Shown: positions 3,892 through 8,898 of the stretch, piece by piece
Numbering within the stretch: position 1 is the stretch's first letter
How the letters are laid out: each line of letters opens with the position of its first letter
From: Candidatus Eiseniibacteriota bacterium
GTDB lineage: Bacteria; Eisenbacteria; RBG-16-71-46; JAFGJU01
Direction: 5' to 3'
Assembly (NCBI GenBank): GCA_020349905.1
Contig: CP070702.1
Location: forward strand, 1,404,468-1,451,708
Length of the DNA: 47,241 nucleotides
Position numbers and translations under genes: made by a program
Notes under the pieces: model-generated
The model's input: the letters and a program-made list of their open reading frames with translations, nothing else
Told to the model about the DNA's origin: nothing
The model's database searches: none

Positions 3892-4061
3892 TCGACCCTC
3901 CTAGACACGGGGTACGCTCGCGCTCCGAGTGGGGTTACCAACTTTCTAACGGGTAGTGCCTAATCCCGCTGGTGACATTGCAGGCGGCGCGTGTTATGTT
4001 CGGCTTCAGCAGATACGTCCTCGTATGTTAGCACATCATGCCGCAGACAAGGAGGCCAAAC

Positions 4062-4568
4062 ATGGGCACCGTGGAGAAGCAGTTTCCGTCGGCCATCGCT
4101 GACAAACCACCGGAGAAGAACTGGTCGGCGGCCTGCAGAAGTTACGGGATCATCTGGGGTCAGCTGGGGAGGGCCATCGTGGACCAGCTAGGTGAGAAGG
4201 GGGTAGAGGCCATCAAGGAGGGACAGAGGCGTGTGGCCAGGCTCCAGGTGCCGCGGGCCTTCGAATCCGGTCGGTTTGAGCGCAACGCCAAGGGCATGGC
4301 CGAATACCTGCTGCTTGCAGAACAGACCCTGGGGATGGTGGTGGAGATTGCACCGGGCGCCACACAGAAGAAAGCCTCGTTCCGCTGGCTCAAGTGCCCT
4401 CTATACGACGACCCCTCAGAGGAATCGACTCCCGAGCTGTGCGATGCTTACGTGGAGTTCGAGATGGAAGCTGTGAAACTCTGCAATCCTAAGCTGACAT
4501 GCACTTCGGCCAAGTGTATGGGGCGCGGTGACGACTTCTGCGAGGTTACCTTCGAGCTGGAAGACTGA
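4062..4568 (+). CDS. L-2-amino-thiazoline-4-carboxylic acid hydrolase-like protein
   Basis: A 168-residue soluble protein. The C-terminal half carries a Cys series: LKCPLYDD, then ELCDAYVEFE, then KLCNPKLTC, then AKCMGRGDDFCEVTFELE. This pattern is typical of the ATC-hydrolase-like family (PF14196 type) and resembles the Cys-containing end of 4-vinyl reductase sensor domains. The founding activity is ring opening of an aminothiazoline acid to carbamoyl-cysteine, but most members are uncharacterised, so the activity is only suggested. An earlier ATG at 4038 is in frame, but AAGGAGG sits 7 nt before the ATG at 4062, which is chosen. A distant relative with a similar Cys ladder lies at 21560-22072. 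Confidence 0.65.
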   Translation: MGTVEKQFPSAIADKPPEKNWSAACRSYGIIWGQLGRAIVDQLGEKGVEAIKEGQRRVARLQVPRAFESGRFERNAKGMAEYLLLAEQTLGMVVEIAPGATQKKASFRWLKCPLYDDPSEESTPELCDAYVEFEMEAVKLCNPKLTCTSAKCMGRGDDFCEVTFELED

Positions 4569-4751
4569 CGGGCCGTAAGTACTGCACAAACCATCATAAA
4601 CTCACACTGCTCTGGCTTCCCCTGATACGGGCTTTCTCTGTCTTATAGTAGGTGCCTGTCCCTGGTAGAGTTCTATCCTCTGGACGCACAGCCCAGTATC
4701 CCCTTCTCATCTCCTGGTTAAGACACTTGTCTCCCGAACCGATTTACATAC

Positions 4752-5174
4752 GTGGAAGGGACTAACGCATACTACGAGGGAGACAGGTATAACGTGCCCG
4801 GGGAAACACCACAAAGCGTGCGCACCGAGTCTTTGCAGAATGGCGAATCGAGCAGAGATCTTCTTGTCCGCCTTGCCGACCTCCTGACACACGAACTGCT
4901 GGATTCCATCGGAGTCATCAAGGTCTACACGGAGATACTTCTGAACAACGAAGCAGCTCCCGTGGAGGAGTTTCTGAACGTCATCCTTGAAAACACCGAG
5001 AAGGTGGACCGCGTCATACAGGAGGCAATCCACCTGGCGCGCTCCGAGGCCAATCGCCCGTCGCAAATGGCCAGGGCCAATCAGAGTTGCGGCGGCGTCA
5101 CCTGCGGAAGACACCGCAAACCCCGTCACAAGCCCTTCCATTCGTCATCTCGGAGAATGGACGCCACTGCGTGA
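4752..5174 (+). CDS. Histidine-kinase dimerisation-domain-like protein, no ATPase domain
   Basis: A 140-residue frame whose middle (about 34-98) resembles a HisKA helix pair: RLADLLTHELLDSIGVIKVY contains the H-box His followed by Glu, and FLNVILENTEKVDRVIQEAI resembles the second helix. The frame then becomes low-complexity (residues 105-140) and stops; no N, G1 or G2 boxes of a HATPase domain follow. It is either a truncated sensor kinase or a stand-alone phosphotransfer/dimerisation protein. The start is a GTG at 4752 without a clear ribosome binding site; an in-frame GTG at 4794 behind GAGGGAGACAGG is equally possible. It lies upstream of a second kinase remnant and a sigma-54 regulator on the same strand. 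Confidence 0.5.
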   Translation: MEGTNAYYEGDRYNVPGETPQSVRTESLQNGESSRDLLVRLADLLTHELLDSIGVIKVYTEILLNNEAAPVEEFLNVILENTEKVDRVIQEAIHLARSEANRPSQMARANQSCGGVTCGRHRKPRHKPFHSSSRRMDATA

Positions 5175-5331
5175 CCTGATTCCCTGATCGACCCAGCGAC
5201 CTGCCCAGAAACCGCTCAACGCTACCTCGCCGGGTGCTGTGCACGACCGGCGTTCGCACAATACTCCTGGCCCGTTCTGCATATCGTTCCTATCCAGAGA
5301 AGCCTTCTAGACAAGTCTCGGGCCTTCCTGT

Positions 5332-5784
5332 ATGATGGCGCTCGCTGTGTACTCCGGCTTTCTCTCTTTCCGGGAGGAGGGAAGACGTGAGCCTCCAGAT
5401 CTCGACAGGTGCTCTTCCACTTTCAGTCAGATTACTTCACCCCCCTTGCTTCCCAGACGGACTCCGTTCTATCTCCGTCAGCGCTGGCAGAGACCGGAGA
5501 TTGCTTGGAGAATCGGGAGTATTGGCCACATGACTCGTCGCGGAACAGCACAAGGGAACGCCGGCTTCTCGGAAGAGACACTCCGTACGGTGCTTGAGCA
5601 GATAGCACTGGGAATCGCCCACGGATTCAATAACCTGCACGGTGGGATACGGGGCTACGTGGAGCTGGCGCTAGGCGTGGCTGGAATCCTGCGGAAACCC
5701 GTCACTCTTGGGGCTCTCTACGCAAGCTTGGAGAGAGCTGTTCTGCAGAAAGAAACCTCGCGTCAAGAAACGATCGCAAGATGA
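5332..5784 (+). pseudogene. Remnant of a hybrid histidine kinase with internal deletion
   Basis: Only the C-terminal half of this 150-codon frame looks protein-like. Codons 80-112 (LEQIALGIAHGFNNL, then GGIRGYVELAL) are the H-box region of a hybrid kinase of the AHDFNN type. They are followed directly by GILRKPVTLGALYASLERAV, the last strand and helix of a receiver domain with its KP motif. The HATPase domain and most of the receiver, about 1 kb in a normal gene, are absent, so an in-frame internal deletion is the simplest reading. The first 75 codons are composition-biased and resemble nothing. The frame ends 10 bp before the sigma-54 regulator, its likely former partner. Confidence 0.65.
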
Positions 5785-5794
5785 GGAGACGGCA

Positions 5795-7126
5795 TTGGAC
5801 GAACTCAAGGTCCTGGTCATTGACGACGAGCAGGCAATCCGAGACACCTGCTCGCGAGTGCTCAGAAAGCTCGGTTTCTCTCCGCTTCCCGCCTCCTCCG
5901 GGAAAATGGCAGTGCGGTTGGTAGGGGAACATGACGTCGGGCTGGCCATACTGGACATAAAGATGCCGGGAATGGACGGGATAGAGACGCTCACGGAACT
6001 CAAGAAGCTCCGTCCGGACACCCGGGTCATAATCATTACGGCCCACGGAACCATCGAAAACGCAATCCAGGCGATGAGGTGCGGAGCCTCTGACTACCTT
6101 CTTAAGCCCTTCTCCATAGTCCAACTGGAGGAGTCCATTCGCCGCGCCTTCGGCGCCATTCTGAAACGCGCGGATCTGGCGGAGATGGACGCCGAATTCT
6201 GCGGGCTGGTGGGGAAGTCGCCCGTGATGCTGGGACTCCGCAGGATGATAGAGCTGGTCTCTTCCAGTGACGTCACGGCTCTCATAATGGGCGAGACCGG
6301 CACAGGCAAAGAGCTGGTGGCCAGAGCCATCCATCAGCTGAGCGACCGTGCGGACGAACCCTTTGTGCCCATCGACTGTAGCGCCATCGGGGAGCACATA
6401 GTGGAGAGTGAGCTCTTCGGTCACAAGAAAGGCTCTTTCACGGACGCTCACGCCGACAGGGTGGGGCTTCTACAGGCGGCCGGGCGCGGCACTGTCTTCC
6501 TGGACGAGATTACCAACATTCCCGTCCACATCCAGGCCAAGCTGCTTCGAGCGCTTCAGGAGAAGGAGATAAGGCCCATCGGTGCGGTGCAATCGGTTCC
6601 TCTGAAGGCGCGCGTGCTTGCGGCCAGCAACGCGGACATAGTGGGAGCCATCAAGACCGGCCAGTTCCGAGAGGACCTCTTCTACCGGCTTCACGTGGTT
6701 CCCATACACGTTCCCTCCCTGGCGAGCAGGAAGGAAGACATCCCTCTGTTGGTGGAGCATTTTCTCGTCAAGCACAGGGGGTCCGGCGAACTCACGCGGA
6801 CCTTCGAAGATGCCGCTGTACGGGCTCTTTCGTCCCAGGAATGGCCGGGCAACGTGCGACAGCTCGAGAGCTTTGTGCGCATGGTCATGACGGTCGTTCG
6901 CTCTCAAAAGATCACCGAAGAAACGGTGGTTCGGCTTCTGGATGAGATGGGGAGGTTGGGCCGACCCGGAGAGGAGAGAGCGATGAGTCTCGAAGAGGCC
7001 GAGAAGCAGGCCATCCTCAGGGCACTCTCCTCTGTGGGCGGGGACAAACGGAAGGCTGCTCAGATACTCGGCATCGCACTCAGCACCCTCTACAGGAAGA
7101 TGAACAAGCTGGGGATAGAAGAATAG
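5795..7126 (+). CDS. Sigma-54-dependent response regulator (NtrC family)
   Basis: A 443-residue protein with three domains. The receiver (1-125) has the acidic pocket DDE at 10-12, phosphoacceptor D54 in AILDIKMPG and K104 in LLKPF. The AAA+ domain (about 135-365) has Walker A GETGTGKE at 166-173 and Walker B with DE at 237-238. The Fis-type helix-turn-helix lies at 400-443 (RKAAQILGIALSTLYRKM). It would activate sigma-54 RNA polymerase upon phosphorylation. The sigma-54 contact loop reads GSFTDA (213-218) instead of GAFTGA. The start is TTG with GAGGAG 6-7 nt upstream; a frame-extending TTG at 5708 lies inside the preceding kinase remnant. Its cognate kinase appears destroyed. A sigma-54 promoter is found at 7402. 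Confidence 0.92.
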   Translation: MDELKVLVIDDEQAIRDTCSRVLRKLGFSPLPASSGKMAVRLVGEHDVGLAILDIKMPGMDGIETLTELKKLRPDTRVIIITAHGTIENAIQAMRCGASDYLLKPFSIVQLEESIRRAFGAILKRADLAEMDAEFCGLVGKSPVMLGLRRMIELVSSSDVTALIMGETGTGKELVARAIHQLSDRADEPFVPIDCSAIGEHIVESELFGHKKGSFTDAHADRVGLLQAAGRGTVFLDEITNIPVHIQAKLLRALQEKEIRPIGAVQSVPLKARVLAASNADIVGAIKTGQFREDLFYRLHVVPIHVPSLASRKEDIPLLVEHFLVKHRGSGELTRTFEDAAVRALSSQEWPGNVRQLESFVRMVMTVVRSQKITEETVVRLLDEMGRLGRPGEERAMSLEEAEKQAILRALSSVGGDKRKAAQILGIALSTLYRKMNKLGIEE

Positions 7127-7313
7127 CAGGCCCCGGGGGTCTGGATTGCGCCGGCGCAGGTGGACCGGCAGCGTTCCGGGAGACCCGTGGAGGTCACGGC
7201 TCGCACCGTTCGCCGGAACTCTTTCGCCGCTTTGAGACACTTCTAACCTGCAGCAAATTAGGATATTAGCCCGAACCACTCCCCTTCTTTCTCGGTTCTG
7301 AGAAAACCCCGCG

Positions 7314-7341
7314 GCCCGAGTGAGGTTTCGAGGCCTCGGGC
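7314..7341. promoter_or_regulatory. Inverted repeat, candidate activator site upstream of the sigma-54 promoter
   Basis: GCCCGAG (7314-7320) is mirrored by CTCGGGC (7335-7341) with 14 nt between. Its centre is about 100 bp upstream of the start point predicted for the sigma-54 promoter at 7402, a normal distance for an enhancer-binding protein. No T-run follows, so a terminator for the preceding gene is less likely. Only one site is seen. Confidence 0.3.
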
Positions 7342-7401
7342 ACACCGCTTAATCCATTCTGTTACAGGCAATTACGTCTCCCGGCGACATCTTTGACGGG
7401 T

Positions 7402-7417
7402 TGGCACAGAAGTGGCA
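7402..7417 (+). promoter_or_regulatory. Sigma-54 (-24/-12) promoter
   Basis: TGGCAC (7402-7407), 5 nt, then TGGCA (7413-7417) matches TGGCAC-N5-TTGCA at all but one core position, with the required GG-N10-GC spacing. It lies 275 bp after the sigma-54 regulator and reads towards the AraC-type gene at 7657, with a predicted start near 7429. The stretch 7127-7656 otherwise holds no convincing gene, only this site and two inverted repeats. Confidence 0.6.
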
Positions 7418-7512
7418 TTCACTCTGGTTTTACCCCACGCGACGCAAACCGAGAACTCCATTCTTGGGCGAAGCCAAAGACCGATTGTTTATTGAATAGG
7501 TCTGGGGTTCCT

Positions 7513-7550
7513 GGTTCCGGCCGGAGGAGTTGTTTCCTTCGGCCGGAACC
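7513..7550. repeat. Long perfect hairpin (16-bp stem, 6-nt loop)
   Basis: GGTTCCGGCC (7513-7522) pairs with GGCCGGAACC (7541-7550) and the pairing continues inward through GGAGGA/TCCTTC with one G-T wobble, leaving a 6-nt loop at 7529-7534. No T-run follows on either strand, so it is not a standard intrinsic terminator. It lies in the leader expected from the sigma-54 promoter and could be an RNA control element, a protein-binding site or a mobile-repeat scar. Confidence 0.7.
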
Positions 7551-7656
7551 GCCTGATTTAGACCACGAGACCAGGGGTTTCGGAGACGCATGGGTACCGA
7601 AAAGGCGGTGACACGGGGACGAGTTCGTCCGGGCCAGCCGGCTGCCCGAAGGGCTC

Positions 7657-8304
7657 GTGGGTATAGTCGTTGACCCGGGTCCCCTGGAGTTCGATGCACT
7701 GACGCTCGCCATCTTGCTGCGACGACACCAACCCGCCCTGCCTCTCTATTTCTTCGGTTCCGCCAGGGATCTGAGCACAGTTTTAGAGATTTTCAATCCC
7801 GATACCACCCGCTGCTACAAGAGTCCCTTCGAGATCTCCGAACTGTCGAAGGCCATCCTTGCTTCATCGTTGAGAACGCGCGGTCTCCCTCACGGCTGGC
7901 GCAGGGGGAACGGGCTCCTCAGGAGGGCGCTCGAGTTCATAGACGTCAACTACCCCACCATCACGTCGGTGACTTACATCAGCACTCATCTTGGAGTCTC
8001 ACGTGAACATCTGACCCGGGAGTTTACCCGCACGGTCGGCCACACGCTCTGGGATTTTCTCACCACTTATCGACTGGAGAAGGCGAAGGAGTTGCTGGGA
8101 GGCGGTTTTCTCGTCAAGCAGGTCTTTGACGAAGTTGGATTCAAGTGCGAGTCGAGCTTCTTCAGGGCGTTCATGAAGCACACCGGCACGACGCCTGGGA
8201 TGTTTCGTGAAACAGCTTTGGCGAGAAATCCCGTGATTCCAACGTGGGAGTCATCGCGAGCCGACGCCCGAAGAGCAGTGGGTCGTCAGGGCGCTCGAGG
8301 GTAG
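7657..8304 (+). CDS. AraC-family regulator with half a receiver domain
   Basis: A 215-residue protein. The C-terminal region (about 88-190) is a complete AraC double helix-turn-helix (ITSVTYISTHLGVSREHLTREF, and FDEVGFKCESSFFRAFMKHTG with the PGMFRE end). The N-terminal 70 residues resemble only the second half of a receiver: LVGIVVD as the phospho-strand with its Asp, LPLYFFGSA as the next strand, and YKSPFEISEL in place of the KP motif. The frame is open upstream to 7612 (GDEFVRASRLPEG continues the receiver) but a TGA at 7609-7611 closes it, so the first half of the domain is missing or out of frame. The start is GTG with a weak GAAGGG. It is probably N-terminally truncated, and may still bind DNA. 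Confidence 0.7.
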   Translation: MGIVVDPGPLEFDALTLAILLRRHQPALPLYFFGSARDLSTVLEIFNPDTTRCYKSPFEISELSKAILASSLRTRGLPHGWRRGNGLLRRALEFIDVNYPTITSVTYISTHLGVSREHLTREFTRTVGHTLWDFLTTYRLEKAKELLGGGFLVKQVFDEVGFKCESSFFRAFMKHTGTTPGMFRETALARNPVIPTWESSRADARRAVGRQGARG

Positions 8305-8312
8305 GCAGCGTT

Positions 8313-8340
8313 CATGGCGGATTCTGGACGGACCGCCATG
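8313..8340. terminator. Hairpin between convergent genes
   Basis: CATGGCGG (8313-8320) and CCGCCATG (8333-8340) form a perfect 8-bp stem with a 12-nt loop, between the end of the AraC gene (plus) and the end of the gene at 8386 (minus). It is followed by TTT on the plus strand only. Position suggests a weak bidirectional terminator. Confidence 0.4.
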
Positions 8341-8385
8341 TTTCGCGGCGAACGGTCGGGGATGGCAGGGGTTCCGTACCCGGTT

Positions 8386-8898
8386 CTATCTGCTAGCTTT
8401 CTTCGCTCTTCTGCGCTGCACACGAAACCGTCTGAGCTCTGCCAGCTCTTCCTCCACGTCTTCAGGACCTGCGGACGCTTGCGATTCGGATTCAAGGACT
8501 ATAGTGCGCAGGTTCTCAGACATGGTTGAAAGCATGTGCTTCCTTGCTTCCCCCAGCGACGCAGCCAGCATGGATAGAGCATTGAAGAGAGTGGGAATCT
8601 CCTCAGGTGTGCAACTGCTTGTTCTGAGTGCGTGAAGGGTCAGCGTAAGGTAGGTGTCGGCGGTGCCGAAAAACTCCAGGTTTCCCGAGAACTCTTCCGG
8701 CAGACTCCCGGGATCCACTTCGGCGATGTCCATACCTCTTATGAAACGCAGATTACATGACTTGAGCTCGACGATTCTTTCCTGTGCCCACTGAAGGATC
8801 TCTTCACTGGGAACACCCTCTGCAGAGAGTTCGACAGCCGGCCAGATGTCCGCGAGTTGAACCGATTGAAACGCGGATTCTGTTTTTCTCGTCTCCAA
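8386..8898 (-). CDS. Uncharacterised helical protein
   Basis: A 170-residue soluble protein that I do not recognise. It lacks a signal peptide or membrane segments, is predicted mostly helical (PEEIPTLFNALSMLAASLGEARKHML), and ends in a strongly basic tail (RRFRVQRRRAKKASR) after an acidic run (PEDVEEELAELR). The frame stays open upstream to 9180, but that part reads like noise (Arg/Ser/Thr-rich). The TTG at 8898 is preceded by GGAGGAG 5-6 nt away and begins the structured part, so it is chosen. The basic tail could contact nucleic acid; this is speculation. It converges with the AraC-type gene. Confidence 0.65.
   Translation of the reverse strand: METRKTESAFQSVQLADIWPAVELSAEGVPSEEILQWAQERIVELKSCNLRFIRGMDIAEVDPGSLPEEFSGNLEFFGTADTYLTLTLHALRTSSCTPEEIPTLFNALSMLAASLGEARKHMLSTMSENLRTIVLESESQASAGPEDVEEELAELRRFRVQRRRAKKASR

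Follow-up and report, generated by a model that had tools for sequence, protein, structure and literature searches.

Can a two-step regulatory cascade persist in a bacterial lineage once the kinase at its top is broken? This question is raised by a gene cluster in a 47,241-nt stretch of DNA from Candidatus Eiseniibacteriota bacterium, referred to here as the window, in which an NtrC-type response regulator gene is followed by a putative sigma-54 promoter and an AraC-type gene. The initial annotation had interpreted this arrangement as a compact two-regulator cascade that survived the loss of its kinases. The source genome (G000; 2.69 Mb on a single contig, 90.65% complete) was compared within a set of 59 genomes, which contains only two others from the same family, G001 and G002, each belonging to a separate genus. 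PF04552 (sigma-54, rpoN) was found in all three family genomes, and the source genome has one sigma-54 gene by this criterion.

Organization of the cluster and the NtrC-type regulator

The features of the cluster are listed in Table 1. As the initial annotation had it, a REC-AAA+-HTH_8 regulator lies upstream of the promoter and a protein with an AraC-type HTH is encoded downstream. All three regulator domains (PF00072, PF00158, and PF02954) score above their Pfam cut-offs, and the receiver contains the acidic pair, T, and K in addition to D54. Regulator identities are 65.5% between the window and G002, 61.2% between the window and G001, and 63.4% between the two relatives; the predicted regulator is intact, with no hint of accelerated divergence in the window. 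Its activator loop keeps the F and T of GAFTGA and is uncommon: among 80 related loci, GAFTDA occurs in two and GSFTDA in none, with seven in which the motif expression found nothing.

Table 1. Coordinates of the features of the cluster, counted from the first base of the window.
Feature	Position	Strand	Remarks
PF14196 (ATC hydrolase family), small gene	4038..4568	+	76% identity to G002, 68% to G001
ORF with HisKA-like stretch, without ATPase domain	4752..5174	+	adjoins kinase remnant
Kinase remnant, 150-aa ORF	5332..5784	+	H-box 5602-5685 joined directly to receiver tail 5686-5778
NtrC-type response regulator (REC, AAA+ sigma-54 interaction domain, HTH_8)	5795..7126	+	D54; GSFTDA loop at residue 213
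Distal TGAGA, candidate enhancer (UAS) site	7233..7237	+	169 bp upstream of TGGCAC
Proximal TGAGA, candidate enhancer (UAS) site	7299..7303	+	within GGTTCTGAGAAAACC; 103 bp upstream of TGGCAC
Inverted repeat GCCCGAG-N14-CTCGGGC	7314..7341		chance level, not conserved
Putative sigma-54 -24/-12 element TTGGCAC-AGAAG-TGGCAT	7401..7418	+	conserved; predicted start ~7428 (inferred)
Long hairpin, 18 pairs, leader of AraC-type gene	7513..7550	+	window only
AraC-type regulator	7657..8304	+	first usable start GTG 7657; AraC-type HTH

G001 and G002 share the order of an NtrC-type regulator followed by an AraC-type gene, and a PF14196 gene heads the cluster in all three genomes. The PF14196 protein is the best-conserved member of the cluster and is possibly the sensor of the system. 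Beyond the family, the regulator has at least 578 relatives, of which we inspected the best 80 (36-43% identical to the window regulator): the regulator was recovered in 80/80, and the DNA around these loci contained an AraC-type-like gene at E 1e-4 in none. The AraC-type protein itself has matches in 26 of the 59 genomes, with a best E of 1.5e-10 outside the family, and the out-of-family matches that were inspected mainly cover the HTH.

The -24/-12 element is conserved in both relatives

The claimed promoter sequence, TGGCAC-AGAAG-TGGCA at 7402-7417, is present with exact GG-N10-GC spacing (GG at 7403-7404, GC at 7415-7416). It lies 275 bp past the stop codon of the regulator gene and approximately 240 bp ahead of the first usable start of the AraC-type gene. 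Compared with the consensus TGGCAC-N5-TTGCW, the -24 half is exact and the -12 half, TGGCA, shows one departure. TGGCAYRNNNNTKGCW has 17 matches (9 + 8) in the source genome versus four for the reversed control pattern; the -12 half reads TTGC in 14 and TGGC in three, the window element included. Since the window element thus does not have the genome's usual -12 form, which it shares with only two other candidates, it would on its own be a middling candidate. The genome scan for strict TGGCAC-N5-TTGCA that the initial annotation had proposed returned no match in the source genome (control, one).

The initial annotation had staked its promoter on conservation of the -24/-12 elements in relatives, and this conservation was found. 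The corresponding gaps of G001 and G002 hold TTGGCACGAAAGTSGCAT, which reads TTGGCACGAAAGTCGCAT in G001 and TTGGCACGAAAGTGGCAT in G002. Across the three genomes, whose gaps are related by descent, 15 of the 18 element columns are identical, and the maximum in 100 dinucleotide-shuffle sets was 11. All three retain GG and GC, position -14 varies (G, G, C), and the -12 half of G001 is TCGC. With only three genomes available, just two comparisons beyond the window underlie this footprint. Searches with TTGGCACRRAAGTSGCAT at up to three mismatches gave 10, 5, and 9 matches versus 8, 5, and 9 for the controls, so that weight attaches only to the exact matches, which are by construction the three source sites, and to their uniqueness at 0-1 mismatch: a second copy at 0 or 1 mismatch was not found in the window genome, G001, or G002. 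Judged by its conservation, the predicted -24/-12 element is more than a chance occurrence. No sigma-70 promoter was found in 7000-8500, and the region upstream of the first gene of the cluster contains no TGAGAA and no conserved -24/-12 element.

The same sequence could also be an operator through which the AraC-type protein regulates its own gene. An AraC-type monomer making two major-groove contacts would require a direct repeat with an 11-bp period. TGGCA-N6-TGGCA, whose copies are 11 bp apart in the window and in G002, has this layout, and the spacer is nearly kept (AGAAG, GAAAG, GAAAG), more than a plain sigma-54 site demands. In G001, however, the second copy has become TCGCA while GG-N10-GC stays exact; moreover, a sigma-54 activator is encoded upstream, and the genome has rpoN. 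No such site was seen ahead of seven AraC-type paralogues either, apart from one weak GG-N10-GC at L056, although the paralogues may bind other sequences. We consider the operator function improbable; it and sigma-54 recognition do not exclude each other.

Paired TGAGA sites are better enhancer candidates than the inverted repeat

The initial annotation assigned an enhancer-like role to the inverted repeat upstream of the promoter. The repeat is present, approximately 100 bp from the predicted start, but 24% of 300 shuffled versions of the gap also contained one with 7-bp arms and a loop of at most 20, and the G002 gap contains no inverted repeat with arms of at least 6. Moreover, the scan for further copies suggested by the initial annotation found none in the source genome. 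We therefore rejected it as the main enhancer candidate. Some doubt over this rejection comes from the G001 gap, where an unrelated palindrome, CGGGAC-CCGAT-GTCCCG, is centred 77 bp upstream of TGGCAC, close to the 74.5 bp of the window repeat; two repeats with arms of at least 7 occur in that gap, a number reached by 7% of 300 shuffles.

The better enhancer candidates, as far as conservation can tell, are two TGAGA sites. Counted from the first base of TGGCAC, they are found at -169/-103 in the window, -171/-105 in G002, and -170/-103 in G001, i.e., 66, 66, and 67 bp apart. In a test that was framed after the sites had been noticed, 5-mers shared by the three gaps at an equal distance (tolerance 2 bp) averaged 0.002 over 2000 shuffles; a 5-mer anchored twice occurred in 0/2000, and the real gaps contain TGAGA twice and the overlapping GAGAA once. 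Less tailored tests of the gaps agree with the conservation of TGAGA but are milder: 12-mers outside the promoter reached nine identical columns (equalled by 2/100 shuffles), and for anchored k-mers the observed value was 7 at k=10 (reached by 1/200) and 8 at k=14 (2/200).

The best copies of the site read TTCTGAGAA, a palindrome that would suit binding by a dimer of Fis-type HTH domains. The distal site of the window (CTTTGAGACAC) matches TTCTGAGAA less well than the proximal one, and in the relatives it is the proximal sites that match less well. PMC4641369 and PMC7057263 place activator sites of sigma-54 promoters at least 100 bp and about 100-150 bp upstream, respectively. At approximately 130 and 195 bp ahead of the predicted start, the TGAGA sites fit what is expected of such upstream sites, being conserved, about 100 bp or more upstream, and at a fixed distance.

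The pair also appears to be particular to this locus. None of the 16 other candidate sigma-54 sites of the source genome has two TGAGA within 260 bp upstream, and no TGAGA occurs in the 400 bp upstream of any of the seven AraC-type paralogues. In the three genomes, TGAGA-N55..70-TGAGA-N85..110-TGGCA was found at seven places (controls, six). Three of these are the loci described here, and at the other four the match does not extend to GG-N10-GC. These results are consistent with the promoter of the AraC-type gene being a dedicated local target.

The kinase of the window lacks its catalytic domain

In both relatives, a kinase gene lies between the PF14196 gene and the regulator gene. The PAS kinase of G001 has 834 aa and carries HATPase_c and a C-terminal receiver; that of G002 has 851 aa and carries HisKA and HATPase_c. 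At this place the window has a remnant, in which an H-box (28 residues; 54% identity with residues 458-485 of the G001 kinase) runs directly and in frame into a receiver tail (31 residues; 45% identity with its residues 796-826). What the G001 kinase has in between, residues 486-795 with the remainder of the HisKA region and with the ATPase domain, is gone. No Pfam family, HATPase_c included, was matched in 5332-5781, and the ATPase region is not present in 4569-5794. The adjoining upstream ORF contains a HisKA-like stretch of 24.5 bits versus a Pfam cut-off of 26.9, and a clear orthologue of it was not found in the G001 and G002 clusters.

The comparison shows an in-frame internal deletion by which the window kinase has lost its catalytic domain. 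A search of the source genome, at 90.65% completeness, gave 19 kinase matches with a best identity of 30% and no intact copy; the last of the 19 is the remnant itself (window 5590-5676). The loss of kinases claimed by the initial annotation holds because the relatives have full-length kinases, the remnant carries the deletion, and no close copy exists elsewhere. With a kinase that lacks its catalytic domain, activation of the regulator would have to come from a different kinase, from a small phosphodonor, or from basal activity of the regulator itself.

The AraC-type gene is truncated and has a structured leader

Homology of the AraC-type gene to its relatives starts at approximately 7618, upstream of GTG 7657 and just past an in-frame stop, and there is no in-frame ATG start. 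Compared with the relatives, the window protein lacks the first half of the N-terminal domain. The relatives' proteins have a receiver-like domain ahead of the HTH (aligned Asp and Lys, by eye), for which Pfam did not call Response_reg and gave a weak OKR_DC_1_N in G002 only; such a domain is not complete in the window protein. In the HTH part, its identity with G002 is 63% across 90 columns.

Half of the N-terminal domain being gone and an ATG being absent, the cascade may be decaying, and we considered that the whole cluster is degenerating in the window lineage and that the promoter is now without function. The internal deletion of the kinase and the truncation of the AraC-type protein point in this direction, as do the identities over 140 common columns of the AraC-type proteins, which are lower for the pairs that include the window (41.4% and 37.9%) than between the relatives (46.4%). 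The regulator, however, shows no such lag; like the gene that heads the cluster, it is intact and conserved to the degree found in the relatives, and the spacing of promoter and enhancer sites is kept to within 2 bp. General decay is unlikely. The statement that the cascade survived has to be qualified, as the AraC-type gene is itself 5'-truncated relative to the relatives.

The leader of the AraC-type gene contains a long hairpin, unique in the source genome, approximately 85-120 nt past the predicted start. Folding of the leader beats all 200 shuffles (z -5.3). Together with the missing in-frame ATG, this would fit a promoter that mainly drives a small RNA ending in the hairpin rather than the AraC-type gene. 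Against this, the gaps of G001 and G002 have no comparably strong hairpin (best 50-nt folds -22.3 and -17.2 versus -35.5 kcal/mol), no T run follows the hairpin, and a scan of 7000-8500 found no terminator. Riboswitches and other known RNAs were rejected for the leader, as 7100-7700 gave no Rfam match up to E 10, which also speaks against the small RNA. We regard a small-RNA promoter as very improbable and retain the AraC-type gene as the predicted target.

All three family genomes also encode very short AraC-type proteins (137-167 aa; L055, L059, and L060) that consist of a basic N-terminus and an HTH, and their adjoining ORFs are alike too, by eye. Separately, both relatives have a second conserved pair, in which a short AraC-type HTH protein is encoded after a long ORF of 840 and 934 aa, respectively (L057 5898-9192 and L058 5352-8904).

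Discussion

The locus is likely to be a local switch in which an enhancer-binding protein and sigma-54 control the gene of an AraC-type regulator, and which has been orphaned from its kinase. Sigma-54 RNA polymerase would bind the -24/-12 element and wait there as a closed complex, while the NtrC-type regulator would bind two enhancer sites around TGAGA 7233 and 7299, form an ATPase ring, loop to the promoter, and open it for transcription of the AraC-type gene. In the relatives, phosphorylation of the regulator would fall to the PAS kinase encoded in the same cluster; in the window, one of the three inputs named above would have to activate it. Of the cascade put forward by the initial annotation, the conserved promoter between the two genes stands, and its control by the adjacent regulator is inferred.

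The window lineage has kept the activator, the enhancer candidates, the promoter, and their spacing even though the kinase is dead and the second regulator shortened. It is conceivable, if doubtful, that activator, twin enhancers, and promoter were retained as a unit after the kinase lost its catalytic domain and the target regulator half of its receiver-like domain, and that a two-step phospho-controlled cascade has thereby become one that operates without its kinase and without control at the second step. The signal of such a cascade might come from another kinase or perhaps from the PF14196 protein, which is conserved.

Each component is of a known kind, and the locus is a well-preserved example of a familiar gene switch. 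In the E. coli NtrB/NtrC system, glnAp2 has a pair of enhancer sites approximately 100-140 bp upstream, TTGGCAC at -24, and a -12 half that departs from TTGC. The window shares these three traits with glnAp2 but differs in that the regulated gene and the signal are unrelated and an intact kinase is absent. Like other orphan response regulators, the window regulator is intact and has no intact cognate kinase beside it; unlike them, two relatives with a kinase reveal that the loss was an in-frame deletion, which fused the H-box to the receiver tail.

PMC4641369 describes enhancer-binding protein genes of Desulfovibrio vulgaris that are co-localized with conserved sigma-54 promoters and gives tGGcacg and tTGCt as the -24/-12 consensus. 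The pairs described there resemble the window in having a REC-AAA+-HTH_8 activator, a GG-N10-GC promoter, sites approximately 100 bp or more upstream, and a target that adjoins the activator gene. Compared with these pairs as described in PMC4641369, the window differs by its AraC-type target, a -12 half of the form TSGC, a broken cognate kinase, and candidate enhancer sites that are TGAGA pairs 66-67 bp apart.

For this little-studied bacterial family, the cluster provides a testable set of regulator, candidate enhancer, promoter, and target, with a paired candidate motif that emerged from conservation alone. It has been caught with its kinase present in two genomes and broken in one, so that what becomes of a response regulator once its kinase is lost can be tested directly here.
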